NCBI GenBank assembly: GCA_027487835.1
Contig: JAIYCU010000030.1
Location: 1-64,000, forward strand
Direction: 5' to 3'
DNA length: 64,000 nucleotides
Source: Bacteroidota bacterium
GTDB lineage: Bacteria; Bacteroidota; Bacteroidia; UKL13-3
Under the pieces are notes generated by a model. That model was not told the origin of the DNA. It did not search any database and saw only the letters and a list, made by a program, of their open reading frames with translations. A program made the position numbers and the translations under genes. Positions 17,433 to 36,030 of this stretch are shown here, piece by piece. How positions within the stretch are numbered: the stretch's first letter is position 1; each line of letters starts with the position of its first letter.

Positions 17433-18338
17433 ATGAGAGGGATTAAACAATGGCTAGGTAGAGGGTTCTTTAGACCTTCCCTTTCAGGAATGTTATATTT
17501 ATTTCTTTCTTTTAATGGACTGCATGTTCAAGCAGAATCTACGCCACGGTACCGTTCCATTGATAGTTTGATAAGGGAAGGTTTTATCAATGTAAGTTTT
17601 GTTTCGTTGGGCGCCTATCAAGGCAATTGTGTAGAGGCAAGCCTCGAAAACAGAACTGGTAATTGGATCTATGTTTGGATTGAAGCGGGCAGGCGTTTAA
17701 TTGCAGACGATAGCACCAAACAAGATATTTTTATTGTAAAAGATAACAAGGTAAAACTAGGGCCATGGGCAAAGTTAAAAACCAGGGTTTTTGGCTTTTG
17801 CTGCCAAAGTTCAGATGGCGCTCCTAAAGAAAAAATGAAGTTTAGTGAAAGCTATATGGCCCCGCCAGATTGGGTGAGGTTGGCACAATTTTTAAATGCG
17901 GCTAACTTCGAAACCAATACCATACAATCTGCAGTATGGTGCCTCTCCAACAACCACTCCATTAGCGGTGTTTATGGAGCACCTGAAGCCCTGGTTAAAG
18001 CGTTAAAAGATACGCTAAGTGCTATCAAAAAAATACCCGTTCCCTGGTATACCACAACGTATGAAACCAACGATACCAGTGTATTTACGGGCGACCCAAA
18101 AAGAATATCGGGCAAGTTTAATTATTATGTAAAACACCATGGCGACTTAGTAATTGCCATTAAAAATAAAAGCGGCAATACCGTTAAAATCCTATCTGAA
18201 TTTTTTAACCATGGAGAAGGCAGTTTTGAGTACCATTTTGACCTAAATGTAAAAGGATGGACAAAGGGTGAATACCATCTTGTAGTGTATGAAGACTACG
18301 CCACCCTACTTGCTACCAAGTCGTTTAAGATTGAGTAG
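17433..18338 (+). CDS. Exported protein of unknown function
   Basis: 301 aa. An arginine-rich N-terminus is followed by a hydrophobic stretch (GMLYLFLSFNGLHVQA), which looks like a signal peptide. The mature part begins ESTPRYRSIDSLI. It has several Cys (GNCVEAS, GFCCQSS, WCLSNN) and a C-terminal beta-rich region (FEYHFDLNVKGWTKGEYHLVVYED) that reads like an Ig-like or T9SS-associated beta-sandwich, but no clear sorting domain. I recognise no family. Codon use resembles the chromosomal genes rather than the AT-rich island to its right. Confidence 0.55.
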   Translation: MRGIKQWLGRGFFRPSLSGMLYLFLSFNGLHVQAESTPRYRSIDSLIREGFINVSFVSLGAYQGNCVEASLENRTGNWIYVWIEAGRRLIADDSTKQDIFIVKDNKVKLGPWAKLKTRVFGFCCQSSDGAPKEKMKFSESYMAPPDWVRLAQFLNAANFETNTIQSAVWCLSNNHSISGVYGAPEALVKALKDTLSAIKKIPVPWYTTTYETNDTSVFTGDPKRISGKFNYYVKHHGDLVIAIKNKSGNTVKILSEFFNHGEGSFEYHFDLNVKGWTKGEYHLVVYEDYATLLATKSFKIE

Positions 18339-18525: not shown

Positions 18526-19692
18526 ATGATTAAGTTTGGTTGTGTGAAAAGTCCAAATATATACTTAGACAACAACTCCACTACTCCAATGGATGAGAGG
18601 GTGTTAGAATCCATGTTGCCATTTTTCAGGTACAATTTCGGTAATTCAGCAAGTAATCACCATTTTGGAAAAACAATCAAAAAAGAAGTTGAAAATGCGC
18701 GAGAAAAAATTGGAGAAATTATAGGATCCTCACCTAATGAAATTATATTGACGTCAGGGGCAACAGAGAGCATTAATTTAGCACTTAAAGGGTTAGCATT
18801 TAATTCAGGTGAAAAACGGCATATTATTACAGTTCAAACAGAACATAAAGCTGTTTTGGACAGTTGTAAATATCTTCAAACTATTGGTTTCGAAATTGAT
18901 TATTTAGGAGTTGATTCTTTAGGAATGATAGACCTTTCATATTTAAAATCCATTATAAGAGATGACACTTTAGTTGTCTCTGTTATGTGTGCGAATAATG
19001 AAACAGGTGTAATTCAAAACATAAAAGAAATAGGTGAAATAGTCAGAAATTCAAATGCTCTTTTTATGAGTGATGCTACGCAAGCAATTGGTAAACTCAA
19101 AATAAATGCTGAAGAAAATTTTATCGACATTATGTGTTATTCTGCACATAAATTTTACGGACCTAAGGGAATAGGTGCTTTGTATTTGAACAGAAGTCGA
19201 ATTAATAAAAATATGTTAACACCGCAAATCCATGGTGGTGGACATGAAAACGGTTTAAGAAGTGGCACCTCGAATGTTCCATTAATAATAGGTTTTGCAA
19301 AAGCATGCGAAATTTCAAATTTGGAATTCCCACAAAATCAAGATGAAATAATAATTATGCGAGATTATTTAGAATCTGAATTGTTGAAAATTAAAGGAGT
19401 TCAAATTAATGGCAGCAAAATATACAGACTAAATAATACCACCAATATTTCCTTCGAAAACATTGATGCTAATGTTTTAATAGGACAGTTAAACTCAATC
19501 TCAATTTCTAATGGGTCTGCATGCAATTCATCAGTTTTTGAACCCTCACATGTCCTTATGGCAATGGGAATTTCAAAAGAAAGGGCATATGGTAGTGTAA
19601 GATTTTCTTTAGGTAAATTTAATTCTATGGATGAAATCGAAATTTCTCTTAAAATGATTCACAAAATATTGAATAATACCTACCATGCTTAA
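18526..19692 (+). CDS. dndA: DndA-like cysteine desulfurase
   Basis: 388-aa PLP enzyme of the NifS/IscS family that takes sulfur from cysteine as a protein persulfide. Key residues are present: His107 (TEHKAV), PLP lysine Lys209 in SAHKFYGPKGIG, RSGTSN (246-251), and catalytic Cys333 in NGSACNSS. It starts with the usual IYLDNNSTTP. In this setting it would give sulfur to the DndC-like protein encoded at 28397-29503. It overlaps the helicase gene by 8 bp and leads the rightward operon. Composition is AT-rich. It could instead be a housekeeping IscS, but no isc or suf genes are near. Confidence 0.85.
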   Translation: MIKFGCVKSPNIYLDNNSTTPMDERVLESMLPFFRYNFGNSASNHHFGKTIKKEVENAREKIGEIIGSSPNEIILTSGATESINLALKGLAFNSGEKRHIITVQTEHKAVLDSCKYLQTIGFEIDYLGVDSLGMIDLSYLKSIIRDDTLVVSVMCANNETGVIQNIKEIGEIVRNSNALFMSDATQAIGKLKINAEENFIDIMCYSAHKFYGPKGIGALYLNRSRINKNMLTPQIHGGGHENGLRSGTSNVPLIIGFAKACEISNLEFPQNQDEIIIMRDYLESELLKIKGVQINGSKIYRLNNTTNISFENIDANVLIGQLNSISISNGSACNSSVFEPSHVLMAMGISKERAYGSVRFSLGKFNSMDEIEISLKMIHKILNNTYHA

Positions 19693-21919
19693 AGAGGTAA
19701 ATTGGTCGGCAGATAGAAGCTATAGAACAAATAGCGATAATGAACCTATCCAATTTTATCTCGATGGATTATGTAACAGCCGAAACTTTGATCTGCTTTT
19801 GGGTTATTTTAGTTCTGCGGCAATTAATGTTTTAAGTCTCGGTTTTGCCTCATTTATTCACAATGGCGGTACCATGAGGGTAATATTTAATAATATTTTA
19901 TCCAAAAGTGATAAGGATACGTTGTCAATTGCAAATGAACCTGAGTTTGACTATAACGAATTAGACTTAAGAGATATTAAGGCATTAAGGAAAACGCTAA
20001 ATGAATACAATGAACATTTTTTTGAATGTTTAGCCTATTTAATTTCTATTAAACGAATCCAAATAAAAATAATTAAACCTAAACTAGGAAATGGAATAGC
20101 ACATTTCAAATCAGGAATTTTTTCTGATGAAAATAATACAATTGGATTTAAAGCATCATGCAATTTTACTGCTTACGGATTAATTGAAAACTTAGAGGAA
20201 TTAGATGCCTTTTTAAGTTGGGAAAATAGTCGTTCCACAAAAATGATTAATCGTCAAACAAACGATTTTAATACCATTTTCGATGAATTAGATTCTAATA
20301 TCGAGTATTTAGATGTAAGAAGTGTAGAAGTTGCAATTCAAAGTGAATTTGGGGGGAAAACTGAACAAGAACTTTTAATACAAGAAAAAGAATTACTTTT
20401 TAAAAAGGGTGAACTATTTAAGAATGTAAAACTGAAGAAAATAATTGATAGGATAAATGATAAAATTGATGAGATTTCGAGTTTACCCAGATTTCCTTAC
20501 GCAGCAGGACCAAGAGAGTATCAAAAAGTAGCTTATACCAATTGGGTTAGAAATAATCATCAAGGAATTTTTGCCATGGCCACTGGAACTGGAAAGACCA
20601 TAACTTCTTTGAATTGTCTTTTAGAAGAATATAACATTTCAGAGACCAAAACATACCATGCACTTATTTTGGTGCCAACATTAATACTGGTTGAACAATG
20701 GGAAAATGAATGCAAGCAATTTAATTTCCAAGATATTATTTTGGTTTCATCTAAAACAAATTGGGAGTATGATTTAGCAACAACCCTTTCAATTTCAAAG
20801 AGGACACCTACGTCATTTATTATTATTGCAACATATGCCTCTTTCGTAAAAAGTAAATTCCAAAATTCACTTCCAAGTCTTCCAGGTAACACATTGATTA
20901 TTGCAGATGAAGCTCATAATATTGGGTCGCCATCAATATTATTAACACTTTCTAAAATCACCTTACTGAAGCGGATTGGTTTATCTGCCACACCTAAAAG
21001 AAATTATGACGAGATTGGAAGTGATGCTATGTCTGCCTTTTTCAATGATAGACCGCCATATACCTATAGTTTCAGCATGGAACGAGCCATTGATGAAGGA
21101 ATTTTATGTAAATATTATTATTACCCACATATTGTACAATTGACAAATGAGGAATTATTAGAATACGTTGAAATTTCAAAAAAATTAGCTCGATTTTTTA
21201 ACATTAAAACTGGTGATTTTGATGGAAGTGATATAGCAGAAATGCTTTTATTGAAAAGAAAGAGAATTCTTCATAAGGCGGAAAACAAACTTGATACCAC
21301 TATTTCTATTTTAAAAAGTAAATTTAAAACAGATAAAGGATTAAGTTATTGCTTCATTTATGTTCCAGAGGGTAGCGTTTCAGAAGATTCAGAGGATGGT
21401 TTGGCAGATGATGAGAGCATTAAAATAATAAATCAGTATTCAAGAGAAATTGGAAGAATTGATGAGAAAATAAGGGTTAATCAGTTTGTCAGCGGAATGA
21501 AAGATAGGAATCAAATTTTAAATCAATTCAAATCTGGCAAAATTCATGTGTTGGCCTCAATGAAATGTTTAGATGAAGGAGTTGATATTCCAAGAGCTGA
21601 ATTTGCAATTTTTTGTTCAAGCACAGGAAACCCACGGCAGTTTATTCAAAGACGTGGAAGAATTTTAAGGAAACATCCAGAAAAGGATATTGCTATTATC
21701 CATGATTTGGTTGTTGTGCCAGATGTTTCTCAATCAAATGGAGATTCCGAAACCTTTAAATTAGAAAGGTCAATGGTTGAGAAAGAAATTGAAAGAGTTA
21801 TGTACTTTGCATCCTTAGCCATAAATCCACATGAAACTGAAGAAGTTTTTAATGCAATCTGCGAACACTATGATTTGAATATTTATACTATTGGCAACAA
21901 ACTAAAAGAAAATGACTAA
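19685..21919 (+). CDS. PLD-nuclease/SF2 helicase, phosphorothioation-system restriction type
   Basis: 744 aa. The N-terminal 200 residues look like a phospholipase D-type nuclease (FDLLLGYFSSAAINVL, and HFKSGIFSDEN with His140, Lys142 and Asp148). A superfamily 2 helicase follows: REYQ Q-motif region (277-280), Walker A ATGTGKT (299-305), DEAH (408-411), SAT (434-436), and motif VI RRGRILRKHPEKD near the C-terminus. This layout matches the DEAD/DEAH family I recall as the DNA phosphorothioation system restriction enzyme (TIGR04095). It likely cuts or unwinds DNA lacking the modification. Eight-bp overlaps on both sides show translational coupling. Confidence 0.78.
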   Translation: MLKEVNWSADRSYRTNSDNEPIQFYLDGLCNSRNFDLLLGYFSSAAINVLSLGFASFIHNGGTMRVIFNNILSKSDKDTLSIANEPEFDYNELDLRDIKALRKTLNEYNEHFFECLAYLISIKRIQIKIIKPKLGNGIAHFKSGIFSDENNTIGFKASCNFTAYGLIENLEELDAFLSWENSRSTKMINRQTNDFNTIFDELDSNIEYLDVRSVEVAIQSEFGGKTEQELLIQEKELLFKKGELFKNVKLKKIIDRINDKIDEISSLPRFPYAAGPREYQKVAYTNWVRNNHQGIFAMATGTGKTITSLNCLLEEYNISETKTYHALILVPTLILVEQWENECKQFNFQDIILVSSKTNWEYDLATTLSISKRTPTSFIIIATYASFVKSKFQNSLPSLPGNTLIIADEAHNIGSPSILLTLSKITLLKRIGLSATPKRNYDEIGSDAMSAFFNDRPPYTYSFSMERAIDEGILCKYYYYPHIVQLTNEELLEYVEISKKLARFFNIKTGDFDGSDIAEMLLLKRKRILHKAENKLDTTISILKSKFKTDKGLSYCFIYVPEGSVSEDSEDGLADDESIKIINQYSREIGRIDEKIRVNQFVSGMKDRNQILNQFKSGKIHVLASMKCLDEGVDIPRAEFAIFCSSTGNPRQFIQRRGRILRKHPEKDIAIIHDLVVVPDVSQSNGDSETFKLERSMVEKEIERVMYFASLAINPHETEEVFNAICEHYDLNIYTIGNKLKEND

Positions 21920-22130
21920 AGAAGAATTGTTAAGATCGTTTTTAGAAGACGAACTATTTGTAGAAAAAAGCTACCTTAAAGAAGGTGAATATAAAAATTA
22001 TAGATGGGCTGCACCAAGCAAGCATAAACTATTTGAGGTTTTGAAAACTTCAATAGAGGGTGAACTTTCTAATGAAAGTCCTCAAATAACGGAAAAGAAA
22101 ATTAACCAATTTCTAAATAAACAAACATGA
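21912..22130 (+). CDS. 72-aa protein of the island operon, unknown
   Basis: Small mixed-charge protein (MTKEELLRSFLEDELFVEKS, later YRWAAPSKHKLFEVLKTSIE). Overlaps of 8 bp with the helicase gene and 4 bp (ATGA) with the DndD-like gene show that it is a real part of the operon. Predicted to be mostly helical. The aromatic-basic stretch NYRWAAPSKHKLFEVL could bind nucleic acid or a partner. It is shorter than DndE (about 110-130 aa) and lacks the DndE signature. No family recognised. Confidence 0.6.
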   Translation: MTKEELLRSFLEDELFVEKSYLKEGEYKNYRWAAPSKHKLFEVLKTSIEGELSNESPQITEKKINQFLNKQT

Positions 22131-24316
22131 TTTTAGAAAGTATTGAAATAGCAAATTTCATGTGTTATGCAGGCAGTAATAAGTTTGAATTCACAGAAGG
22201 AATAAATGTAATAATTGGGGATAATGGATATGGGAAATCAAAACTATTTGATGCTTTTTATTGGGTTATGTATAATGAATGTTTTGATACCAATAAAAAG
22301 AAGTTTCAGAAATCGCCCTTTCTTAAAAAACTAATTGTTTCAGATAAGGCTATAAGCGAAACAAAGGAAGGAATAATTACGGCTTCAGTAATTTTAACAT
22401 TTAAAAACTTAGATAAAGGCAATGTTTACATTCTCGAAAGAAATTATAGTGTAAAAAAAGAGGATGATATTTTAATTGAAGATATAGATAGCAAAGAGGT
22501 TGTTTGGCAAAAAGATCTACATTACTTAACAGCAAAGGAAGTAACTGATTCAGAACAAATCTCTAGAATTAAAAAAACAATTCTACCTGACAATATAAAG
22601 CCTTACATGTGGTTTCAAGGTGAGCAGGTGGAATCCATTATTGACTTTAACAAAACAGATACATTAACTCAAGCAATAAATGTTCTTTCTAATATTACTA
22701 GATATGATCACATAAAAGAAATTTCAGAAAATCTAAAAGAATCAACAACAAAAGAATTCAATAAAAAACAACGAGATTTAAGCAGTGATAAGGATAAAAG
22801 TTCAAATTTAGAATTACAACGAAATCACATTTTAGATCGATTAAAGGAGTTACAGAAACAGGAACTACAAATACAAGATACAAAGGCTACTGCAGAGGAA
22901 AAATCAGAACAGTTACTTAATAAAATATCTGATGCTCAAAAAATAAAAGAGGTTGAAGCAAAAAGAAAAAGTATTGAAAAAAATCTGGAGGAAACCCAAG
23001 AAGAGTTTACTGAAGAACAAAAATTATTACACAAAAAGCTATTTACTAATAAATGGGTTTTAAAAGGGACAGAAAAGCTTTTTGTAGAATATAGTTCGCT
23101 ATACAATAATTATGAACAAACAAAACTTAAACAAGAATTAACCAAGCAAGCTAGAATCGAGTCGGAAAATCAAATCATGATTGAACTTCATGCTAGGCTC
23201 CCTGTTGATGTGCCGGAGCCTATTCATTTGGAGAATATGTTAAGCAATGAACATTGTTTAGTTTGTGATAGAGAAGCACCATTGGGGTCTGATGCCTACA
23301 TCAAAATAAAGGAACTTTTGGATAGGTCAAAAACCAAGGTTAAGTCAATTGAAAGTGAAGATTCAAATATTCATGATTTTGGAGCTGACCTAAGAAAATT
23401 GTATCAAAATGGACTAGGACTTAGTCATAATATAAAAAATATTGATGATGATATTACTTCTACTTTCAGGCGTTTAAGAAAGCTAGATAAAAAAAGGAAA
23501 ACACTTACAGATGATTTAAATGCAATTGAATCTGAAATCAATAGTTTAATTGTTGATACTGCATTAAACGTGCACCAAGCAAACGACCTACTTAACCAAT
23601 ATAATGCACAAAATGAACTTGCAAAAAGAGCTATAACACAGGAGAATTCCACTGCAAATGAAATTTTGAAAAGAAAGCAGGAATTACAGCAATTGGATAT
23701 TGAATTAGGCAGATTGGTTTCTGGAGAAATACCTGCTTACTTAATTGAAAAACTTAAAGTAGTAGAGGAGTTTAATACATTGGCACATTCCACACGTAGA
23801 AGAGTTTTTGATTCATTGGTTAAGATACTTGAAACAGAGGCAAATCAGCATTATCAATTAATGACACAAGGAAACATGTCGGCAAGAGGAATTATAAAGT
23901 TAAAAGAGCTTAATAGCGGCAAAAACTATATGCCAGAGTTGACAGATGAAAATGGAAATGTTTTAATGCAATTAAATACTGGAAATATTATCTTGATTAA
24001 ATTAGCAACAATCATGGCCATTATTTCTGCAAGACAAGGCTCTAGAGACACTGATTTGTACACGCTTATTACAGATGCACCAATGTCAGTTTTCGGGGAG
24101 GATTATACCATTGGATTTTGTAAAACGGTTAGCAATGTATATCGCCAAAGTATCATTATGAGCAAGGAGTTTTATAAAAACATGGAATTGAGGAATCAAC
24201 TTTTAACCAATCCAGATATAAAGCTTGGAAAGGTTTATTTAATAACTCCATCAATACCAGAAAACTCAAGAGCCAATAGAAATCAATTAAGTACAAATAT
24301 TCAAGCATTAAACTAA
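22127..24316 (+). CDS. dndD: DndD-like SMC/Rad50-family ATPase
   Basis: 729 aa. Walker A GDNGYGKS (31-38) follows a typical SMC start (ILESIEIANFMCYAG, EGINVIIG). MWFQGEQVES (161-170) lies where Rad50-type proteins have their Q-loop region. Long coiled coils run from about 195 to 350 and 400 to 540 and enclose a zinc-hook CxxC (CLVC, 377-380). The C-terminal half has a degenerate signature (NTGNIILIKLATIMA) and Walker B LYTLITDAP (644-652). DndD is the ATPase/nickase partner of phosphorothioate insertion with DndC and DndE. Start ATG overlaps the previous stop by 4 bp; the next gene starts in its own stop (TAATG). Confidence 0.8.
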   Translation: MILESIEIANFMCYAGSNKFEFTEGINVIIGDNGYGKSKLFDAFYWVMYNECFDTNKKKFQKSPFLKKLIVSDKAISETKEGIITASVILTFKNLDKGNVYILERNYSVKKEDDILIEDIDSKEVVWQKDLHYLTAKEVTDSEQISRIKKTILPDNIKPYMWFQGEQVESIIDFNKTDTLTQAINVLSNITRYDHIKEISENLKESTTKEFNKKQRDLSSDKDKSSNLELQRNHILDRLKELQKQELQIQDTKATAEEKSEQLLNKISDAQKIKEVEAKRKSIEKNLEETQEEFTEEQKLLHKKLFTNKWVLKGTEKLFVEYSSLYNNYEQTKLKQELTKQARIESENQIMIELHARLPVDVPEPIHLENMLSNEHCLVCDREAPLGSDAYIKIKELLDRSKTKVKSIESEDSNIHDFGADLRKLYQNGLGLSHNIKNIDDDITSTFRRLRKLDKKRKTLTDDLNAIESEINSLIVDTALNVHQANDLLNQYNAQNELAKRAITQENSTANEILKRKQELQQLDIELGRLVSGEIPAYLIEKLKVVEEFNTLAHSTRRRVFDSLVKILETEANQHYQLMTQGNMSARGIIKLKELNSGKNYMPELTDENGNVLMQLNTGNIILIKLATIMAIISARQGSRDTDLYTLITDAPMSVFGEDYTIGFCKTVSNVYRQSIIMSKEFYKNMELRNQLLTNPDIKLGKVYLITPSIPENSRANRNQLSTNIQALN

Positions 24317-24807
24317 TGGATTTATTAAAACGAATAAAAGATAGGGCTCCAGAATATGATAGTCAATATTATGATATGATTTTAGACTTTACCATTGAAC
24401 AAGGTGGCAAGGCAGGAACTAGCACAGAAATTGACAGATGGAAACAAGGTAAATACTTTTCTACAAGGTACGAAATGTATATGTATGCCGCTTTATTAGG
24501 CCTTAAAAATGACTATAAGGTTCCTATTACCTATGGTACAAAAAAAGATAAGTTTATTGAAATGCGAGCTTGGCAACCTCAAGATATTACAGATTATGTA
24601 ATCATGGGTGTTATAACAAAAACAGATTTCAATTTTAATGAATTTGAAAACTGGGAAGAAGAAAAAGTTGAAAAAAAGATAACCGAACTAAAAGGCATCT
24701 TAGAAGACTATGCAAACGGTGGATTTGATTTAATTCGTGCTAAAAAGGAATCTGAACCAAATTACTTTTTACAAAATGAAAATTGCTTTTTGGATTTGTT
24801 GGGATGA
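24316..24807 (+). CDS. Phosphorothioation-associated small protein (DndE-position protein)
   Basis: 163 aa, coupled to the DndD-like gene by a TAATG overlap. The central part, YFSTRYEMYMYAALLGLKND followed by YKVPITYG, recalls the small family I know as dnd system-associated protein 4; I cannot confirm this. The DndE hallmark (LSKxAKxxLxxLKRxTG with a WNxLCRWAFxLSL block) is absent. Its position right after dndD is the one held by dndE in classical clusters, so it may do the DndE job of binding nicked DNA, but this is inference. Eight bp separate its stop from the convergent PIN gene. Confidence 0.55.
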   Translation: MDLLKRIKDRAPEYDSQYYDMILDFTIEQGGKAGTSTEIDRWKQGKYFSTRYEMYMYAALLGLKNDYKVPITYGTKKDKFIEMRAWQPQDITDYVIMGVITKTDFNFNEFENWEEEKVEKKITELKGILEDYANGGFDLIRAKKESEPNYFLQNENCFLDLLG

Positions 24808-24815
24808 GCAAATTT

Positions 24816-25643
24816 TTAGAATTTATAAAAAGGTCTACTATCAACAAATTCAATATGTTGATTAATTTTTATTAAAAAATCAGACGATATATTGCTTCTA
24901 AAAAAATCAGAAAATTTTATTAGAACTTCAAATATTGAAGAATATTTGTTTCTTCTCTCCTTAACTTGTGAATATAATTTGGCGACCACTTCAAGCTCTA
25001 ATTTATTTATCGAATATCTTAATCTACTTACCATTTCAGAAAATTCGCTATTTCTAATTTCACTTTTTGGTATTTCAAAATTTTGTAAAAGCTTTTCTAA
25101 AGCACTAATTTCTGATGCGTACTCATGATATAATAGGGATAAAAATCTTTTTAAATCAGTGGTTGAAAAGCCATCGTTATGTCGATAGAGTGTAATAAGT
25201 AAGTCAACACTATCTTCTATGTAACCTATTTTATGGTGTTGTAAATAAGGTATAAACTTCTTTTGGGCAGGTGAATCATCGGTATAAAATATAACTCTTG
25301 TTCTATTAAATGTATTCAAATAAAAGGATAGCAGCATACTTTGATACTCCCCATTTTTTTTTGAATAATTAAGTAGTTCCGATACTTCTTCATCTAAATC
25401 TTTATAACTCTCATCTCTGTGAATGCAAAGTCTGAAATAGTTGAGTTTAATTTCAATTTCCTTATGCCTTTCTTTTGGATAGGGTGTAATTTTTTGAAGC
25501 TTCTTAAAAACATTTTTATTTATTTCATCATAAACCTCTTTACAAATTGAAAATTCAAGCTTTTGTAGATTTTTCAACAAGAATTCGTCTTCATCGATAT
25601 GAAGTAGATTTATAACTGTACATGCATCTATTATATATTGCAT
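24816..25643 (-). CDS. PIN-like nuclease domain protein
   Basis: 275 aa, last gene of the leftward operon. The start MQYIIDACTVINLL is a classic PIN strand-1 motif with Asp6; Glu99 (KNGEYQSMLLSFYL) and Asp122/Asp123 (VIFYTDDSPAQKKF) are at the expected later acidic sites of a metal-dependent PIN RNase. The second half (about 135-275) is helical and charged, with no family I recognise. The partner AAA ATPase gene lies 3 bp upstream, and the pair could form an activated effector, for example one that cuts RNA once phage DNA is sensed. No antitoxin-like gene is next to it. Confidence 0.7.
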   Translation of the reverse strand: MQYIIDACTVINLLHIDEDEFLLKNLQKLEFSICKEVYDEINKNVFKKLQKITPYPKERHKEIEIKLNYFRLCIHRDESYKDLDEEVSELLNYSKKNGEYQSMLLSFYLNTFNRTRVIFYTDDSPAQKKFIPYLQHHKIGYIEDSVDLLITLYRHNDGFSTTDLKRFLSLLYHEYASEISALEKLLQNFEIPKSEIRNSEFSEMVSRLRYSINKLELEVVAKLYSQVKERRNKYSSIFEVLIKFSDFFRSNISSDFLIKINQHIEFVDSRPFYKF

Positions 25644-25646
25644 AGT

Positions 25647-26762
25647 TTAATTCTTCCAGCCAATTACATCTGTTTTATTTGCTGTGTAATATTCAAAGTC
25701 AATAGGCGTTTTCCTATCGGATTCTGCTAAATCAACTAATGTTCCTAAAGCTTCATTGATACTTCTAAGCGATACATTCCCAAGATCTTTCAATATTTGA
25801 CTTAGTAAAGCTTCATTAAAGGGGAAATAAATATCACTTTCTGTTAAATCGTCTATTATATAAGCTTTTAATAATTCTGAGACATATTTCAATATTTCAG
25901 GCTCCTTTGGTAATTCGAAATTTATACGGTCTTTTATTCTTGATTTTAGAGCCTCACTAATATATTCACCTAAATCTTCTATATTAAATAAGGCTGATTG
26001 AGTTAAATTAAGAAATATCAACAAATTGTTTGGAGTATTATCTAATAATTCTCTCAAAAATGAATTGGTTTTATCTCCATTAACCTTTGTTAATATAGCA
26101 ATATCTTCAAACTCATCAATCCATAAAATAACTGAAGAGTATACTGACCCTTTATATGTTAAACAAGAAAATATAACAGATAATAACTTTGAATAATCTG
26201 TATCTGCATTTAATACTCTTTGAATTCCGTGATTTGAAAGAGCTCGGTTGTCGGCTGCGTTTGCAGAGCCATATAAATATCTTCTAAATAAATTTTCTTC
26301 AATATCATTATTAAAAAAGGCTTTAGCAACATTTTTAATGAAAACATTGTCGCCAATTAAATCTATATAATTATTAAGTTCTGTATTCAGCAAATCAAAT
26401 GATGCTCGTAAATTAGCTATATCAAGTTTATCAACAATGTTCGTATAAAAATCCTCGATCGGAGACTTCCCTTTTGGCAATGTAACAAAAATAAAATAAG
26501 GGATTTTCTCACCGGCCTCAACCGAAATTTCTGCAAGAACACTTTCTTTTCCAAAATATCTAGCCGCATGAGTTTTCCCACTTCCATACTCACCCCAATT
26601 TAAAATTAATGAGGAATTTGGCACTTTAATAGCTCTTTTAATTCTGCTATGAAATTTATCTTTAATAATAGGAAAACCTGCCCAAATTATTTCTTGCGAA
26701 CTTATTGCAGGTGTAAGCCTAAATGGATTGGACTTTAAATTAAACAATTCTTGATATGACAT
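25647..26762 (-). CDS. AAA-family ATPase of the island
   Basis: 371 aa. Walker A GEYGSGKT (57-64), Walker B VILWIDEFED (211-220), and a sensor-like stretch LLIFLNLTQSALF (247-259) are clear. The N-terminus YQELFNLKSNPFRLTPA resembles ORC/Cdc6- or ExeA/TniB-like ATPases (NPFxLTP is a common start there). It lies 3 bp from the genes on either side, between the 544-aa unknown and the PIN nuclease. A DNA-sensing or loading role for its neighbours is plausible but not shown. Confidence 0.75.
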   Translation of the reverse strand: MSYQELFNLKSNPFRLTPAISSQEIIWAGFPIIKDKFHSRIKRAIKVPNSSLILNWGEYGSGKTHAARYFGKESVLAEISVEAGEKIPYFIFVTLPKGKSPIEDFYTNIVDKLDIANLRASFDLLNTELNNYIDLIGDNVFIKNVAKAFFNNDIEENLFRRYLYGSANAADNRALSNHGIQRVLNADTDYSKLLSVIFSCLTYKGSVYSSVILWIDEFEDIAILTKVNGDKTNSFLRELLDNTPNNLLIFLNLTQSALFNIEDLGEYISEALKSRIKDRINFELPKEPEILKYVSELLKAYIIDDLTESDIYFPFNEALLSQILKDLGNVSLRSINEALGTLVDLAESDRKTPIDFEYYTANKTDVIGWKN

Positions 26763-26765
26763 ATG

Positions 26766-28400
26766 CTAACTTTTTTGAATATAACCATCTTCATATTGTG
26801 GCTGAAATTTATAAATATAATGTTCCTTCAAATTTTCTTCTAATATAGTCAAAATGGTGTGATAAGAAATTGAAAATTTGTGGTTTAAATACATTGAATA
26901 TTTTGTGTATAAAATAGCTTGTGATGAAGTAACTCTATTTGGAGCAATTGTTTTAAAACATTCAAAACTTTTATCTATGTAAAATTTAATTAAGATAATA
27001 ACTTCATTTAAAGGAAGGTGTTTCTCCCAATAGGATTGATTATTTGCATAGCTAAAGGCATGAGGGAAAAACTTACTTAAAGATAATTTGGGGTCCTCAA
27101 TAGGCTTACAATTAACATCAATCCAAGAAACAAGTTCATAAAAAAACGACTCGCCAAAAGAATTAACTGAAATGATATTACCTTCACTTAAATTAATTAA
27201 ACCTATATCAGCCATCCAATTTAATCTTGGAATAACGACATGTTCCAGGTAAACTTTTGGTGCTTTCCAAGCCTCTACTCGCTTTTTTATGGCTTTTAGT
27301 TGGGTTAAAACTTTATTATTTTTTATAAAATCTTCAAGAACTATCCGGGAATTTAATCGTTCAAGCAGTAGGGACTGAAAAGTTTCAATTAATGATTTTA
27401 TATCTTCAATTCTCTTAATGAAAATAGATTCAAAAATTATGGAAAAGTATAAATAATCCTCTTTAATGAGGATTTCAAGAAAAAACAATTTATCTAAATC
27501 ATCTAATATAAAGGGATTCAAATTCTCGCTAGTAAAGGTTTTTCTTAACTCAATATACACTCGAAGCGATTTAGAAGGAACAACTACCCTATTTACACTA
27601 ACTACTAATCCTAATTCCTTCATTAACTCATAATAAGGCTGCCCAGACTTTCCATTTAGGGATTTAATTATTCCCTTATTATTTTCCAAGTTCTCTAAAT
27701 ATTCATTAAAAGTAATCGCGAACATTTCAAATTTTTTACTTACAAAACTTTCAGGCAATCTTTGTTTCTGAGAAAAAAGTTCGAAAAAAATTTTAAGATA
27801 ACCTAACCTTCTAACTTTTGTGTTTGTATTTAAAATCCTTGGATAACCATTATCACTAATATTCTTTTCAATTTTTGGATTATAATATAATGGGTCTAAC
27901 CTCAATTTTTTACTACTTTCAATCTCATTGATAATCTTTACAACATTGTCAGTAGTAATAGATGCGAGATTTAGAAAAAAACCTCCAAAGTAATTTGGCA
28001 AACCTTTACACATTTCATCGTTATAATCTATGTCAAAATCGTATTTCTTTATCAAATCTGGCACAATACTATTTAATGTCCTCATCAACTTATAAACTGA
28101 TTTCGCTACAGAAATTATTCCATCCTTATCATTTAGACTTTCACTGTTTTGCCTAAGTTCGGTATTTTCAAAAAATGCAACATTTATACTCTCAATACCC
28201 TCAAAGTGTTCATTTTCGATAATTTCTTGAATGTTATCTAATGACCCGAATTCCTCATACCCGAAATCTTCGTTGTTATTAGATGTTATTTTAATTTTTA
28301 TAACCCAATCATTTAGTTCGAAAAAAATTATACCATAACTATCCCATCGCCATTGCGCCCTATTGGTAATGGAATGAATAACTCTTAATAAATTGCTCAT
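26766..28400 (-). CDS. Unrecognised 544-aa protein of the phosphorothioation island
   Basis: I chose the ATG at 28400 (MSNLLRVIHSITNRAQWRWD), which gives a 4-bp ATGA overlap with the DndC-like gene; the frame also opens at 28418. The N-terminal approximately 90 residues look like an alpha/beta domain (GIIFFELNDWVIKIKI). The rest is helical, with a possible winged-helix part around YYELMKELGLVVSVNRVVV. No Walker, nuclease or metal-binding motif is visible. It is very AT-rich. Tight packing between dndC-like and ATPase genes implies a core role. Function unknown. Confidence 0.65.
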   Translation of the reverse strand: MSNLLRVIHSITNRAQWRWDSYGIIFFELNDWVIKIKITSNNNEDFGYEEFGSLDNIQEIIENEHFEGIESINVAFFENTELRQNSESLNDKDGIISVAKSVYKLMRTLNSIVPDLIKKYDFDIDYNDEMCKGLPNYFGGFFLNLASITTDNVVKIINEIESSKKLRLDPLYYNPKIEKNISDNGYPRILNTNTKVRRLGYLKIFFELFSQKQRLPESFVSKKFEMFAITFNEYLENLENNKGIIKSLNGKSGQPYYELMKELGLVVSVNRVVVPSKSLRVYIELRKTFTSENLNPFILDDLDKLFFLEILIKEDYLYFSIIFESIFIKRIEDIKSLIETFQSLLLERLNSRIVLEDFIKNNKVLTQLKAIKKRVEAWKAPKVYLEHVVIPRLNWMADIGLINLSEGNIISVNSFGESFFYELVSWIDVNCKPIEDPKLSLSKFFPHAFSYANNQSYWEKHLPLNEVIILIKFYIDKSFECFKTIAPNRVTSSQAILYTKYSMYLNHKFSISYHTILTILEENLKEHYIYKFQPQYEDGYIQKS

Positions 28401-29503
28401 ATAAAACAACTTGCACATCCCTCCTCTTCCTCCTCAGCCAATATATCTAATAAGAAAGGAGATTTTACTTTATCAGGCCTTTCTGAACGTTTAATAAAAT
28501 CTTCTTTAATCTGCAAAATCCTTTCGGGCTTTGTTAATTCTGTTAATGGTTCATCTTGTATCCAAGTATATCCATCTTTTTCATATTCCATAGCTTTCGC
28601 AAATAAATCGGGATGTTGTTCATATAACCAAACCCATTCGATTTTTTGCTGATAAAAACAGAAAAAACAGCCAGAACGGCTTCTTGCATAACTTCCCTTT
28701 TTTCCATTAACCTCAAAATCAACTTCTTTATAATAAGCCGGAACACCTACTCCAGAGTCTTCTAATAATTTAAAAATATCTGCCCTTACTAAAATATCCT
28801 CATTACAAACTAATGGAAAATTTTCCTCTATTGCTAAAGGGTAATTAGTAGTTTTAATAAATTCAAAAACCGCAGAATTAAATTCTTTAATCCCTAAATC
28901 AAGTAACTGGGTTAGCTTCTGTTGTTGATTAAAAGACGCTGAAATTTTTGTGCATATTATTTCTATTGCTCTTGCCGATTTATCACCAAGAAGGTTTTCG
29001 ATATAAAGTTTTTCGACAAGAGGAATATTTGTATTTGCAAAAAATTTACTAATTACATCTTCACTCCATATGTTTTTACGAAAGGGGAAAATAGACTGTA
29101 TATTTGATTTTGTAGAAATATAACCATCTCTTTCTTCATCTCCTCGTATTCCAACATAAGAAATTACTGGATCATTGCCAACAAAATCCTCAAAAGGTTC
29201 TAATTTTAATTTCTTTGTACACCATCTGGCATTTGTAGACGGAATATACCCTTTATAAATCTTAATGAAATGATCAAAAGGTGTCGGTGCCGAACTATTA
29301 TTTGCACCAGTTAACCTTATTATTTTTTTTCCTAGAAAGTTCTCTAAATTACTAATTAATTGGTAGGTTTCATCCAACTCTTTACCCGTATCGGAGGTGT
29401 AATATTCAATATCCAAATGAGGATAATTTTGCTTCATGTAAATAGCTAAAGCTGCACTATCCTTACCTCCAGATATTCCTAATAAATGACGAACTTTACT
29501 CAT
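28397..29503 (-). CDS. dndC: DndC-like PAPS-reductase-family protein (short form)
   Basis: 368 aa; classical DndC is longer, near 500. The PP-loop SGGKDS (11-16) binds ATP to activate the DNA phosphate for sulfur transfer. Further family marks are YYTSDTGKELDETY (34-47), RWCTKKLK (93-100, Cys95) and YVGIRGDEERDGY (116-128). Two CxxC pairs, GCFFC (Cys279, Cys282) and GCASC at the extreme C-terminus (Cys363, Cys366), could hold an iron-sulfur cluster or relay a persulfide. It lies in the opposite operon from the dndA- and dndD-like genes. Overlaps: 8 bp with the ATPase before it and 4 bp with the 544-aa gene. A sulfate-assimilation CysH is unlikely given the neighbours. Confidence 0.8.
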   Translation of the reverse strand: MSKVRHLLGISGGKDSAALAIYMKQNYPHLDIEYYTSDTGKELDETYQLISNLENFLGKKIIRLTGANNSSAPTPFDHFIKIYKGYIPSTNARWCTKKLKLEPFEDFVGNDPVISYVGIRGDEERDGYISTKSNIQSIFPFRKNIWSEDVISKFFANTNIPLVEKLYIENLLGDKSARAIEIICTKISASFNQQQKLTQLLDLGIKEFNSAVFEFIKTTNYPLAIEENFPLVCNEDILVRADIFKLLEDSGVGVPAYYKEVDFEVNGKKGSYARSRSGCFFCFYQQKIEWVWLYEQHPDLFAKAMEYEKDGYTWIQDEPLTELTKPERILQIKEDFIKRSERPDKVKSPFLLDILAEEEEEGCASCFI

Positions 29504-32500
29504 GTTTTAGCATTTCTTTTAGAAGATTTGTTAATGCGGCAATATTTAAGGTTTTATCTTTCGAGAGCTTTTTCTTTAAATCCTCTTGAATTGAATTCAC
29601 CTCAGCCTTCTTATTTTTAGGTAATCTAACAATTTTTTTACTGATTCCATCAAAGAATGAATTTATCTGCAAGTCGAATACATCCTCTTTATCCTCTTTA
29701 AAATCTGATTTTGAAAGATTAGTTAAGCTATCCAATTCTAATACCATTGCCTTGAAAGCGTCGCATACCAAAATCTCTTCCCCATCTGTTATTTTATCTA
29801 GAGTTTTATTAATTAAACATTGAACCAATGAATTTATCCAAGCCTTTTTATCATCAATTTGAGAGTCTAATCTTAGTATAAAAACTTTTTGTTTTTGTAA
29901 AAGCAAGTGTCTTCTGATTTTTTTAAATCTGTTTTGTAAACTCAATTTATATTCTTCAAATGGAATTGTTTCGCCAATTACATCTGTATGAATAAAATTC
30001 TCAAATCTATTTACTAATTCATCGTAACTTGTTCTCAATTCACGAATGGCTTCCTGTAATTTTAAGATGTATTTTTGAAGGCTTTTATCTGAGTGCTGTA
30101 AATCAGAAATTGAAACTTTTAGCGCATTGGGAAAATCCTCAAAAAAGGTCTTTTCAGGGTCTTTTGAGTTAGAAATGGCAAATCTTACAGATTGGGCTTC
30201 TTTACTTAATCTATTGGTATTACGTGAATATTCTGGAAGGTCTTTATAAAAAGTCAAAAATGGCTTAATTGTTTCTATAAAATTTGAATTACTCAGTTTG
30301 TCTTTTGAATTCTGGTTTAACAAAATTCTATAGCTATTAAAAATATCCAATTTGACACCTTCAATTGCAAAACACTTTATCTCAAATTCATGCGGATTTT
30401 TACCCATTAAATCCAAAACTTCATCTGTAATAAAAGGAATATATACATTATTGTTAAACAAAGCAAAATCGTCTCTCTTTAAAAACAGAAAGGAAGGTAC
30501 CCAAAAATCAATTAACCCTTGTTTAAGTTTAAAAGGCCTTTGATTTAATAGTTCAATAAATTCAGCTACATTCCTTCTCGAAGCTTTTGCACTTTCAAGA
30601 AATTTCAATGAATAGTTCCAAAGATGGTTAAATCCGTTTTTGCTGCTTGGTTTAATTTCTGAATTGATATCCACGTTAAACAACAAAATATTATTTGTTT
30701 CCAACAAAGAAAGATAGATAGTTTTTTCAGGTGGGAACTTATCTGTTGGAAAAGCTAACTGTGGTTTATCCCAATCATTAATAAGGGCTCTAAAATAATT
30801 GCGTTTAGCAGTATGAATTGTCTTAGAAATTTTATGCTTATTAACTAATTCATTATTAAAAATAGGAGTTTTAGAATATACCTCACGGCAAATTGTCGAC
30901 AAAAAACTATTAAATGTCTTTTTGCTTTTGATATCAATTACTTCCCCTTTAAAAACCCATACCACATCTGACTTTGGGCCATTAAAGTTATTAAGAATTT
31001 TATGTGTAAGTAAGTTTTGCTGATGTAAAATAATATTGTTTAATTCTCTTACGGCAACTTTATCCTCCTCATTTTCATTAATTACTTTCTTAGTTTTCTC
31101 TATTTCAAATAAAAGATCCTTTATAGATTTTGAATTTTTATAATAACAATAAATAACGGCTTCCTCATTTTGAGCTGAAACAGATTTAACTTCTTTTAAA
31201 ATATCCTTCTCATTAAAAATCAGGTTTATAAAACCATCAATTTCACCATCTGGTATTTCTTTAATAGGATGACTCGAAATTCTATATTCAAACAAGCGAG
31301 GAGTGCCAGTTTCATACATAACTTTTTTTGCAACAATTGGCGGCAATTGATAATATTTATTTAGTAAAGTAACAACATCAGTAACATCATCTACCTTTCT
31401 ACCAGCTTCAACTAAGGCTAATTGAATATCTAATTCCGTTCCTTCAAACAATACAAATCTTTTGTGATAAGTTCTGTAAAATATGATTTTTCGTTTTTCT
31501 AATTCATCTATTATTTCATCCGGATTTTTAACCAATAAACATTTACTAGCATAGTTAATTAAAAAGGTTCTATCCAAGTTGGCGCCTGTTTGAGCAAAAA
31601 TATTAAGTAGCCCTATCGCCTTAATAACTTTAAAGTAATTTGAGGTGCTTCTATCAAAATTGGTTTCAACTTTTTCTAAACCTATTCTAATTGAATTCCA
31701 TGAGGCAATATCTGGGTTGTATATAGAATTTAGGTGAGAATGAAAGTTGAAAATTAAATAATCATACAAATCCGCTATAGTATAAAAACCATCCTTTGTT
31801 TGTTTATGTTGAAACAAACCTGTGTGGTCGGTAGATTCCAAAAATGAAAATAATGACCTTTCATTTTGCCCATATTTTTGAAGTGATAATGTTAGTAAAA
31901 ATGATGCAAAAATATCCATAGGAAATAATTTGGTTCCTATTTCCTTTATGTATTCTTCACTAAGATTAAATGCTTTTGATTTGACTAATAAGCCAATTAC
32001 ACTTGAAATATCCTTTTCGTACTTATTTTTAGCAGGAGATAATGGTAAATGCTCTGAGGCCAAAAATAGCAATTGTTCAACGGGTTCATTGAATGTTATT
32101 TCTTTAAACCTTCCCTTCACCTTTGTCCATTCTTGTTTTTGTGCTTGGCTTAATGCCAAGGAATATGCATCAAAATTTTGATGAACAGTTGTAAACAATA
32201 CAATATTGTAATCTGGATTATTAACAAATTCGGCAAGTTGTTGAATAAAATATAACTCTTTTTCTGGCTCATTTTGGGCTGCATACTCCAAAAATTTTCC
32301 AAATTCATCCAAAACAATAAATAAAATTGGATTCTTTTTACCCAAATCGTGTAACCTGCCGTAAACCTCGGAAAAGATATTCTCAACAAGGTTTGTTCTG
32401 CTGCTTACGCCAAACGTATCTGCAAAAGTTGCAATAAGTGATTTATGTTCCCCTACAATATTTACAAATTCAACGGTTGGATTAGGCAACAAGTTAACCC

Positions 32501-32720
32501 CGAAGTACTTTTTATTATTTTCCAGACATTCTTGAAATGCCCATAAAAATGAACTCTTCCCTGTACCATATGAACCAATAATATTAAAAGCCCTTATTCC
32601 CTTTTTAAAATCGTTTGAAATTTGACTTACAATTCTATTGGCGTTAGGTGTTGGGATATAGTTGATTTCCTTCCCTTTATCCCTAATAATATTTACTGAT
32701 GTTGTATATCTAGCTGCCAT
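29496..32720 (-). CDS. Large P-loop ATPase partnered with DUF4007
   Basis: 1074 aa. Walker A GSYGTGKS (49-56), Walker B PILFIVLDEF (131-140), a sensor-like IVLFTTVHQNF (173-183) and an arginine-containing KGRFKEITF (202-210) sit in the N-terminal quarter. The remaining 800 residues are helical, with coiled-coil stretches near 880-960, and match nothing I can name. The general shape recalls BREX BrxC/PglY ATPases. It overlaps DUF4007 by 11 bp and the DndC-like gene by 8 bp, so the three proteins are probably made together. It may be the motor of a restriction or DNA-scanning complex. Confidence 0.75.
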   Translation of the reverse strand: MAARYTTSVNIIRDKGKEINYIPTPNANRIVSQISNDFKKGIRAFNIIGSYGTGKSSFLWAFQECLENNKKYFGVNLLPNPTVEFVNIVGEHKSLIATFADTFGVSSRTNLVENIFSEVYGRLHDLGKKNPILFIVLDEFGKFLEYAAQNEPEKELYFIQQLAEFVNNPDYNIVLFTTVHQNFDAYSLALSQAQKQEWTKVKGRFKEITFNEPVEQLLFLASEHLPLSPAKNKYEKDISSVIGLLVKSKAFNLSEEYIKEIGTKLFPMDIFASFLLTLSLQKYGQNERSLFSFLESTDHTGLFQHKQTKDGFYTIADLYDYLIFNFHSHLNSIYNPDIASWNSIRIGLEKVETNFDRSTSNYFKVIKAIGLLNIFAQTGANLDRTFLINYASKCLLVKNPDEIIDELEKRKIIFYRTYHKRFVLFEGTELDIQLALVEAGRKVDDVTDVVTLLNKYYQLPPIVAKKVMYETGTPRLFEYRISSHPIKEIPDGEIDGFINLIFNEKDILKEVKSVSAQNEEAVIYCYYKNSKSIKDLLFEIEKTKKVINENEEDKVAVRELNNIILHQQNLLTHKILNNFNGPKSDVVWVFKGEVIDIKSKKTFNSFLSTICREVYSKTPIFNNELVNKHKISKTIHTAKRNYFRALINDWDKPQLAFPTDKFPPEKTIYLSLLETNNILLFNVDINSEIKPSSKNGFNHLWNYSLKFLESAKASRRNVAEFIELLNQRPFKLKQGLIDFWVPSFLFLKRDDFALFNNNVYIPFITDEVLDLMGKNPHEFEIKCFAIEGVKLDIFNSYRILLNQNSKDKLSNSNFIETIKPFLTFYKDLPEYSRNTNRLSKEAQSVRFAISNSKDPEKTFFEDFPNALKVSISDLQHSDKSLQKYILKLQEAIRELRTSYDELVNRFENFIHTDVIGETIPFEEYKLSLQNRFKKIRRHLLLQKQKVFILRLDSQIDDKKAWINSLVQCLINKTLDKITDGEEILVCDAFKAMVLELDSLTNLSKSDFKEDKEDVFDLQINSFFDGISKKIVRLPKNKKAEVNSIQEDLKKKLSKDKTLNIAALTNLLKEMLKHE

Positions 32721-33618
32721 AATAATTGCTTAAAATATCAAATTTGTTTGGTACAACCCTAAACTGTATTTCTTTGATACCTGCATGATCATTAAAATTA
32801 ATAGCGTATTTTTTGAAATTTGTATTTGCACAAATTGCCTCAATCTTATTAACCAAACCAGTTCTATTAATTGCAAAAACACTTCCGACAAAATTCTTTT
32901 CCTGCTCCAATGTATAAAGGCTAATTGACTTGTCAAATTCACCTTTATCTAAAATTGCATATAAAATTACCTCTTCTGGAATTTCTACTTTTTCGGTCGA
33001 TGGAATTGAGTAATAGGTTATAGTATCCTTTTCAACCTTTCTTTTCTCTTCCTGAATAATATTCAATTCCGTTAATAATCCAGAAAATGTATCTTCTTTG
33101 TCCTTAGATTGAGCATCTGTTCTAATATACATTTTGGTTAATACCTCAAAGTCACCTATAACAGTGTTTTTATTTATTGGAGAAGCCCCTAACTCCTCAG
33201 TTTTCCTTACAGTAAAAGAAATAAAATTGTCTTTTGTGAATTCAATTTTCTCTCTTCTAAATTCGTTGAAAATTAGATTGTAGATTGAGGCATTATTAAG
33301 TTTAACCAATTGATAATGTAATAACCAAAGTGAGGCCTCGTCTTCCAAATAGGGATCCTTCCCTTTATCATCTAATAAATATTCGGCAAATTCGGTTAAT
33401 TCTCCTTCCCTACCAATTATGCCGAAAGCTTTCATCCAATAATAAATTCCAGAAACCATATTCTTTCCTACTCCCAATTCTACAACAGCATCTTCATCTG
33501 TAAATTTCCTTCCGGCTTTTACAAAATCATACCCCTTTTTTAGCCATAAATGCCTACAATGAAAAGTTTCATGACCTGAAAACGTTAATTTAGATGGAGA
33601 AATAGATTTACTTATCAT
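32710..33618 (-). CDS. DUF4007 protein, first gene of the leftward island operon
   Basis: 302 aa. The N-terminus KLTFSGHETFHCRHLWLKKG is the DUF4007 signature (GHETFxxRxxWLKKG), followed by AVVELGVGKNMVSGIYYWMK. The family is, as I recall, found next to PAPS-reductase/DndC-like genes, which is the case here. The VELGVGKNMV part looks like a winged-helix DNA-reading segment. It overlaps the large ATPase gene by 11 bp. No clear promoter was found in the 235 bp before it. Likely role: target recognition or regulation for the phosphorothioation machinery; this is inference. Confidence 0.8.
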   Translation of the reverse strand: MISKSISPSKLTFSGHETFHCRHLWLKKGYDFVKAGRKFTDEDAVVELGVGKNMVSGIYYWMKAFGIIGREGELTEFAEYLLDDKGKDPYLEDEASLWLLHYQLVKLNNASIYNLIFNEFRREKIEFTKDNFISFTVRKTEELGASPINKNTVIGDFEVLTKMYIRTDAQSKDKEDTFSGLLTELNIIQEEKRKVEKDTITYYSIPSTEKVEIPEEVILYAILDKGEFDKSISLYTLEQEKNFVGSVFAINRTGLVNKIEAICANTNFKKYAINFNDHAGIKEIQFRVVPNKFDILSNYYGS

Positions 33619-35560: not shown

Positions 35561-35938
35561 CTTATTGATGACCCGCCAAGCCTTATTGATGGCAAATTTT
35601 ATCTTATTGATGACTCGCCAAGTCTTATTGATGGCAAATTTCACCTTATTGATGACCCGCCGAGTCTTATTGATGGCAAATTTCATCTTATTGATGACCC
35701 GCCAAGCCTTATTGATGGCAAATTTTGTCTTATTGATGACCCGCCGAGCCTTATTGATGGCAAATTTTGCCTTATTGATGACCCGCCATGTCTTATTGAT
35801 GACAAATTTCACCTTATTGATGACGCGCCAAGCCTTATTGATGGCAAATTTCATCTTATTGATGACTCGCCGAGCCTTATTGATGGCAAATTTCATCTTA
35901 TTGATGACCCGCCAAGCCTTATTGATGGCAAATTTTGT
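35561..35938. repeat. Tandem array: nine 42-bp units, each made of two 21-bp halves
   Basis: The 42-bp unit consists of two 21-bp halves that both begin CTTATTGATG: one continues ACCCGCCAAGC (with variants), the other GCAAATTTTAT (with variants). Nine full units run from 35561 to 35938, with a tenth beginning at 35939 and breaking off after CTTATTG. Because 42 is a multiple of three, frames stay open on both strands (about 125 aa each), but these carry no start context or domain and look like a by-product. The units differ by a few substitutions each, so it is not a very recent expansion. Confidence 0.9.
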
Positions 35939-36030
35939 CTTATTGGAGGTCTAAAGGAGCCTGCCGAGGTGTTGCCTTAGCGTTCTCTGCGGTAAACATA
36001 GCGTTCTCTGCGGTAAAAAAATATGACTCA

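Follow-up and report, generated by a model that had tools for sequence, protein, structure and literature searches.

Gene content of the cluster

The 64,000-nucleotide stretch of DNA analyzed here (the window) belongs to a Bacteroidota bacterium (assembly GCA_027487835.1, contig JAIYCU010000030.1, positions 1 to 64,000) and carries, at positions 18526-33618, a cluster of genes related to DNA phosphorothioate (PT) systems. We found eleven genes in two operons, one with five genes on the plus and one with six on the minus strand, that converge at 24807/24816. The count comprises ten open reading frames (ORFs) of at least 100 amino acids (aa) and one of 72 aa (21912-22130), and leaves out an antisense ORF considered spurious. 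Neighboring genes overlap or are separated by a few bases. The tight coupling and convergent arrangement had already been described in an initial annotation made from the letters alone, and its gene content, strands, and coordinates all hold in the ORF listing. The whole cluster aligns with a Bacteroidia metagenome-assembled genome (L034; L numbers designate the loci compared) as one unbroken DNA alignment of 15.1 kb with 83% identity and is therefore far beyond chance. The broad idea of a PT-based defense island proved right, but the Dnd-type reading of its parts did not, since PADLOC identifies Ssp and Pbe genes. The plus operon and then the minus operon, the latter from 33618 downward, read as follows:

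18526..19692, plus strand: SspA/DndA-type cysteine desulfurase, predicted sulfur donor, 388 aa (PADLOC SspA 1.7e-150, DndA 1.2e-149)
19685..21919, plus strand: PbeA, PLD(HKD)-type nuclease domain fused to a superfamily 2 (SF2) helicase, 744 aa (PADLOC PbeA E=0, 1060 bits)
21912..22130, plus strand: PbeB-like small protein overlapping both neighbors, 72 aa (position and size)
22127..24316, plus strand: PbeC-like ABC ATPase that has a coiled coil and a CxxC hook, 729 aa (PADLOC PbeC 5.9e-30)
24316..24807, plus strand: PbeD-like protein, 163 aa (TIGR04062 dnd_assoc_4 9.3e-9, 36 bits, cut-off 74)
32710..33618, minus strand: SspB, DUF4007 DNA-recognition/nicking subunit, 302 aa (Pfam DUF4007 1.9e-75, PADLOC SspB 2.9e-107)
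29496..32720, minus strand: SspC, large BrxC-like P-loop ATPase, 1074 aa (PADLOC SspC E=0, 1437 bits)
28397..29503, minus strand: SspD, 3'-phosphoadenosine-5'-phosphosulfate (PAPS) reductase/ATP pyrophosphatase sulfurtransferase, 368 aa (PADLOC SspD 4.1e-92)
26766..28400, minus strand: protein with a FokI/BpuJI-like recognition region and a C-terminal winged helix, 544 aa (AlphaFold2, structure alignment)
25647..26762, minus strand: AAA+ ATPase, BrxD-like, 371 aa (Walker A at 57-64)
24816..25643, minus strand: PIN-fold protein (residues 1-135) with a helical C-terminus, 275 aa (AlphaFold2, structure alignment)

The last three genes, which directly follow sspD, are referred to below as the trio, and the position that they occupy as the slot. 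Taken together, the cluster joins two PT modules that are already known to a third module in a fast-changing slot.

An Ssp modification module with a Pbe-type restriction module

All four proteins of the SspABCD module were found with PADLOC, while the initial annotation had seen no Ssp protein and had called SspD DndC-like. The sulfur-transfer gene had been supposed to be separated from its partners, but SspD occupies its usual place in the order sspB-sspC-sspD, and the facing operon, instead of a dndA/dndD unit, holds SspA, the desulfurase of the module, together with a Pbe-type restriction module. The SGGKDS motif and residues C95, C279, C282, C363, and C366 of SspD are conserved, and so is C333 of SspA (at least 97% of a 51-member cluster), which we take to be the catalytic cysteine. 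By homology, it is very likely that SspABCD carries out the PT modification of host DNA.

A split Dnd system was ruled out by the PADLOC identity of SspBCD. The DndC family had no match in the bacterium's own genome at an E value of 0.001, and DndE, DndF, DndG, and DndH were not found among the proteins of the cluster, to which that search was confined. In a search of the same proteins for DndD, the best model reached 51 bits, on the protein that matches PbeC at 5.9e-30, so that the gene previously read as DndD-like is PbeC-like.

To place the locus among its relatives, an SspD profile was run against a collection in which each species is represented by a single genome; of the 420 relatives obtained, the best 80 were examined, so that the frequencies given here describe the closest relatives. 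By record title, with the placement of some genera presumed, 77 of these 80 are Bacteroidota, and two are Deltaproteobacteria/Desulfuromonadales. Two further loci, L020 and L021, are apparently the same contigs as L110 and L046 and add no evidence. Both PbeA and PbeC are present in 37 of the 80, making the pairing of SspABCD with Pbe a common one (these are clustered counts; the raw counts, 40 for PbeA and 38 for PbeC, include weak matches to other genes, among them the PbeA-like helicases of L046, L055, and L074). The other restriction partners were a protein of about 800 aa (family c10) in 11 loci, a module of SF2 helicase, GHKL ATPase, and PLD protein in nine, and SspE in four; the remaining 19 loci, 12 of them truncated, showed none. 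The two operons do partly occur apart, since sspBCD is often accompanied by other partners without Pbe, and pbeAC lacked neighboring dnd genes in 320 of 553 cases according to the accessible part of PMC6459918.

The restriction module of the window appears complete from its sequence and layout. A gap of 207 bases separates pbeA from pbeC and is filled by the 72-aa ORF, which matches no PADLOC model; a small ORF was recovered at this place in 32 of the 36 related loci in which both genes are adjacent. The published PbeB and PbeD have 66 and 152 aa (PMC6459918, accessible part), and it is on these sizes and the small ORF that the apparent completeness is based. Relatives of the PbeD-like protein, whose published namesake has been described as DndE-like, occur next to pbeC in 32 of the 80 loci. 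In PbeA, H140, K142, and the residues of the helicase GxGKT, DExH, and QxxGR motifs are conserved in at least 97% of a 52-member cluster that includes shorter PbeA-like helicases, and the match to TIGR04095 (dnd_restrict_1) gives 417 bits, under the curated cut-off of 600. The PbeC-like protein has a Walker A motif at 31-38 and a C377/C380 hook whose cysteines are kept across relatives. In an archaeon, PbeABCD needs PT and blocks the replication of viral DNA (PMC6459918, accessible part), and by homology to this system it is likely that the Pbe-type restriction of the window is guided by PT.

SspABCD-SspE, SspABCD-SspFGH, and DndCDEA-PbeABCD have all been published. The window shares with the first two the complete SspA-D set, the sspB-sspC-sspD order, and the conserved motifs, and differs from them in a restriction side of the Pbe type; SspE (DUF262 plus DUF1524) had no match in the same genome in a search with the single model PDLC02789 at an E value of 0.001. 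With haloarchaeal PbeABCD, which accompanies DndCDEA and equals the CxC ABC-ATPase system, it shares the gene order, the PLD-helicase, the small protein, the CxxC ABC ATPase, and a protein of about 160 aa. Here, however, the module is paired with SspBCD, whereas in the published texts, as far as accessible, it accompanies Dnd genes, adjoins methylases, or stands by itself. The earlier statement that no described system has the full set therefore stands only for the combination of SspBCD with Pbe and for the trio, the Ssp and Pbe modules each being published. Neither of these two was described in the literature searched, mostly without subscription papers, apart from a bare co-mention listed for PMC8053081.

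That the cluster is a divergent SspFGH or bacteriophage exclusion (BREX) type 4 locus is very improbable. SspB, SspC, and SspD are common to both, their homologs in BREX type 4 (PAPS reductase, DUF4007, BrxC, PglZ, BrxL) included, and three extra genes follow sspD, as do the SspFGH-like genes in L116. However, the trio is unrelated to the SspF-, SspG-, and SspH-like proteins of L114, L116, and L117 (hhalign probability of at most 1.1%), three alphaproteobacterial plasmid loci whose proteins owe their names to position and an FtsK annotation rather than to the FF-93 originals, and BREX type 4 was rejected with family scans of the cluster, in which neither PglZ nor BrxL was found among its ten larger proteins.

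Two other partner modules were observed in the relatives. The c10 protein (L038, 14457-16859; L045, 14679-17066) adjoins sspBCD at the place taken elsewhere by Pbe or SspE, and has a weak GHKL-ATPase match (Pfam 23 bits, cut-off 25) and no PADLOC match; it is a candidate for a further Ssp restriction partner. The three-gene module beside sspBCD in L037, L039, L046, L055, L074, L087, L094, L105, and L110, and also in L026, consists of a weakly PbeA-like SF2 helicase, an MzaB-like GHKL ATPase, and a DrmC-like PLD protein; these family matches come from L021.

The slot after sspD and the trio that fills it in the window

The contents of the slot were classified in 81 rows (the 80 loci plus the window). 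The trio of the window was found in 11 rows, nothing in 13, SspE directly next to sspD in two, and four were unclassified. The most frequent cassette was a GHKL ATPase of about 745 aa, in most cases accompanied by two further genes (12 rows), followed by a DUF262-type protein with a kinase (11), SIR2 (8), or another partner (2). Family c23 with or without a deoxyribosyltransferase accounted for six rows, a deoxyribosyltransferase plus family c29 for three, a 174-aa protein, alone or beside a DndB-like partner, for five, and GHKL plus a 151-aa protein and family c32 for two each. In other loci, the slot is thus occupied by proteins of effector type, namely DUF262-type proteins accompanied by SIR2 or a kinase, deoxyribosyltransferases, and DndB-like proteins.

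On the SspD tree, a quick tree with several weak branches that makes all change counts approximate, the slot type changed 42 times over 77 rows (the four unclassified rows were left out), compared to a mean of 49.1 and a minimum of 44 in 200 shuffles. The restriction module changed 13 times over 62 rows (19 of the 81 rows without a recognized module were left out; shuffled mean 22.6, lowest 19), and the presence of the trio nine times (shuffled mean 10.5, lowest 8). A slight signal of descent is therefore left in the slot, and a far stronger one in the restriction module. Among the 60 rows with both labels, the 34 changes of the slot fall inside the range of the shuffles (mean 37.75, lowest 32), and the 12 changes of the restriction module fall outside it (mean 21.7, lowest 18).

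Where similar loci were compared, in eight selected pairs, the differences lie chiefly at the slot. L058 and L067 are 88.4% identical from upstream of sspB to 4 bases past sspD. The match resumes, at 91.3%, no more than 30 bases from the called sspA start and continues until pbeD ends, whereas their cassettes, of 3.7 and 1.1 kb, do not align to each other. The pairs L064/L075, L076/L075, L053/L067, L058/L070, L064/L079, and L059/L079 behave in the same way, with borders no more than about 10 bases from the end of sspD, and in L064/L079 and L059/L079 a filled slot faces an empty one. In the eighth pair, L062/L073, SspBCD are 83.8% identical and both the slot and the restriction module differ. 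A stretch of 239 bases in L062 (14793-15031), beside its Pbe-type locus, is 81% identical to the start of the L073 sspE and is possibly a remnant of an exchanged restriction module. The window itself and L035 are 72.3% identical over sspBCD and 69.8% identical over pbe; the intervening slot is replaced.

Several other cassettes were recorded. L041 (11058-15289) and its relatives carry a GHKL ATPase (about 745-777 aa) with proteins of 383 and 250 aa, the latter two without a family match; a relationship of the trio to the similarly laid out GHKL/383/248-aa cassette was rejected (hhalign probability of at most 2.3%). In L044 (11092-13010), a DUF262/GmrSD_N-type, NsnA-like gene is directly followed by a ThsA-like SIR2 gene. 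A DndB-like gene with a partner of about 170 aa lies beside an SspBCD-SspFGH-like locus on a Rhizobium plasmid (L114, 21833-23592), so this cassette crosses phyla.

The three proteins of the trio were compared with those of nine relatives, giving ten aligned sequences. The start giving 544 aa is preferred to that of the 550-aa ORF because M7 of the latter is invariant in all ten. Neither this protein nor the 275-aa one had a usable match in the family scans, and a search of solved structures by sequence with the three trio profiles gave nothing usable. The best AlphaFold2 model of the 544-aa protein, built from the ten sequences, has a predicted local distance difference test score (pLDDT) of 81. 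In a second-look aligner its residues 196-445 superimpose on FokI (Z 10.8, root mean square deviation 3.9, 190 aligned), then on Nt.BspD6I and BpuJI, and residues 469-550 resemble ORC/Cdc6 and other winged helices (Z about 8-9). The ATPase has Walker A and B motifs, with W214 and D216-I221 invariant in the ten sequences, and a weak BrxC/BrxD match under the Pfam cut-off. Its short and weak profile match to SspC (35 columns, probability 48.5%) was taken as a common ATPase resemblance and rejected as a relationship. The PHROGs gave weak matches only, the best (E 0.008, clamp loader) for the same ATPase. The 275-aa protein is, as modeled, a PIN fold with conserved acidic residues and a predicted nuclease: its best model has a pLDDT of 84, residues 1-135 match PIN/VapC structures (Z 10.6, second-look aligner), and D6, E40, D122, D123, and D147 are invariant in the ten sequences.

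The trio was found directly after sspD in ten of the 80 related loci, one of them truncated, with Pbe in six, the c10 protein in two, and SspE in one; as its restriction partners are of three kinds, it is tied to SspBCD rather than to any one restriction module. Its proteins covary with each other (Spearman 0.87-0.94 over 45 pairs, which are not independent of one another) more closely than its ATPase does with SspC or SspD (0.67-0.68, same pairs). Exchange is shown by L073, whose trio ATPase is closer to that of the window (65% identity) than its SspC is (54%); L045 gives the reverse (37% and 60%). One could suppose that the trio acts on the modification side, the 544-aa protein and the ATPase tuning the site choice of SspBC and the PIN protein processing nicked DNA. 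Its place within the sspBCD operon on the same strand would fit, as would the description of SspB as related to the DNA-binding region of FokI (accessible parts of PMC10853773 and PMC12839542), but SspBCD lacks the trio in 70 of the 80 loci, and the SIR2, kinase, and deoxyribosyltransferase found in the slot elsewhere have no obvious role in modification, which leaves this proposal improbable.

Outside these loci, the 544-aa protein was found in none of 394 other genomes of the phylum and in no plasmid record, the ATPase in none of 394 other genomes of the phylum, and its profile in none of 394 other genomes of the class. Distant relatives of the ATPase (21-22% identity, E 1e-5 to 1e-7) came from three plasmid records only. 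Two single-sequence scans of viral contigs found no trio relatives, but a scan of this type of genome contigs with the 544-aa protein missed L034 (76% identical), present in the collection, so that single-sequence scans, the viral ones included, are no evidence of rarity. These results bear on the idea that the trio is an independent passenger, toxin-antitoxin-like or a stand-alone defense, that shares only the promoter of sspBCD and has no link to PT. The frequency of exchange on the SspD tree, for the slot as for the trio, agrees with this, as do the slots that are empty (13 of the 80 loci, one truncated) or hold SspE (two). Against it, the trio was found nowhere else in the genomes and plasmids searched, a weak point because the ten relatives came from an sspD-anchored search, and on balance we regard the passenger as unlikely.

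The plasmid relatives are haloarchaeal (L017-L019), and on all three plasmids the genes of a DpdA-like transglycosylase, of a 299-aa protein, and of the BrxD-like ATPase follow one another. Here too a relative of the trio ATPase sits in a DNA-modification cluster, but with another partner protein, with no PIN gene directly beside it, and with modification of the base rather than the backbone. A DUF3368 gene lies about 5 kb from the ATPase in L017 and is presumably PIN-like. A relationship between the 544-aa protein and the 299-aa neighbor was rejected for want of a profile match.

The cluster region is AT rich, with a GC content of about 0.28-0.35 compared to 0.36-0.43 from 35 kb on. The window contains no tRNA and no Rfam family at gathering score, and promoter and terminator scans gave results at chance level. 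Just upstream of the cluster (16550-17227) lies an Abi-like gene (Pfam Abi_2 E 5e-4, below the cut-off; PADLOC PD-T4-5 6e-14), which may be a further defense gene of the AT-rich island. Directly upstream of sspA, a 301-aa ORF (17433-18338) has no Pfam or PADLOC match and falls outside the part aligned with L034, whose stretch ends there. A tandem array (35561-35945; period 42, 9.2 copies, 91% matches) adjoins the right border of the island.

A proposed three-tier model of defense

We consider it rather probable that the cluster is a three-tier PT defense locus, in which a main PT restriction is accompanied by an exchangeable back-up effector; the PT chemistry and the Pbe action would be those of the published systems. 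In the first tier, SspA-SspD would place sulfur on the host DNA: SspA would feed SspD, while SspB and SspC would select where this happens, nick a single strand there, and power the exchange. In the second, PbeA-PbeB-PbeC-PbeD would provide the main restriction, the ABC ATPase and its small partners scanning DNA and the PLD-helicase acting on DNA without PT, so that phage replication would be halted. In the third, the 544-aa protein would bind DNA through its FokI-like multi-winged-helix region, the AAA+ ATPase would couple this binding to ATP, and the PIN protein would cut RNA (or single-stranded DNA) once the first two tiers were breached or inhibited, stopping the cell and hence the phage. 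Back-up effectors of this kind would be swapped at the slot after sspD. The analysis itself establishes the gene identities, the conservation of residues of catalytic type, the fold matches, the recurrence, and the cassette exchange, whereas what sets off the trio and what it attacks are purely inferred. As for the trio itself, its position, the effector-type company in the slot, and the PIN fold make a PT-linked back-up effector plausible, at roughly even chances.

Several observations weigh against this reading. The FokI-like match has a Foldseek E value above 0.1 (best E 0.11 for Nt.BspD6I, 0.13 for BpuJI) and exceeds a Z of 10 in the second-look aligner only, where a single JetABC winged helix ties with FokI (Z 10.1, 89 residues); the other four of the five models of the 544-aa protein have mean pLDDT values of 56-65. 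For the PIN protein, the other four models give 69-76, and Foldseek E 0.28 at best. The exchange of the slot is frequent but not free, its 42 changes being below all 200 shuffles. The PbeD label comes from one sub-threshold match (TIGR04062) and position. A cutting role of PbeA is disputed in print, since the published Pbe system is described, in the text accessible, as not cutting viral DNA. Finally, the observations may also accommodate a trio that is an independent defense passenger and does not sense PT.

A precedent for the back-up effector proposed here exists at Dnd loci, where nucleases encoded on their own have been suggested to act as suicide effectors in reserve (PMC10853773, accessible part). 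Nuclease genes of this kind at Dnd and BREX loci (Rakesh 2024; BREX survey 2026) are likewise PIN or other nucleases beside a DNA-modification defense; the difference is that here a fixed trio of recognition protein, AAA+ ATPase, and PIN protein occupies one defined Ssp slot, with a counted exchange. More tentatively, the Ssp loci of Bacteroidota might have a dedicated slot in which at least six types of cassette, mostly of two or three genes, replace one another and wire effectors to the PT state, so that a locus would retain a single modification enzyme and exchange its final line of defense. The trio would then be an undescribed member, made up of a DNA reader resembling FokI, an AAA+ protein as the switch, and a nuclease of PIN type.

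According to Wang et al., the majority of 2,678 sspBCD modules lack both sspE and sspFGH, and the authors raised the question of what accompanies them (PMC8092258, accessible part), which the present survey answers for the closest relatives of the window locus. The survey also delimits a slot whose contents turn over faster than the restriction module, which makes it directly testable whether many interchangeable effectors can be served by one DNA modification, and it indicates new effector families by position alone.

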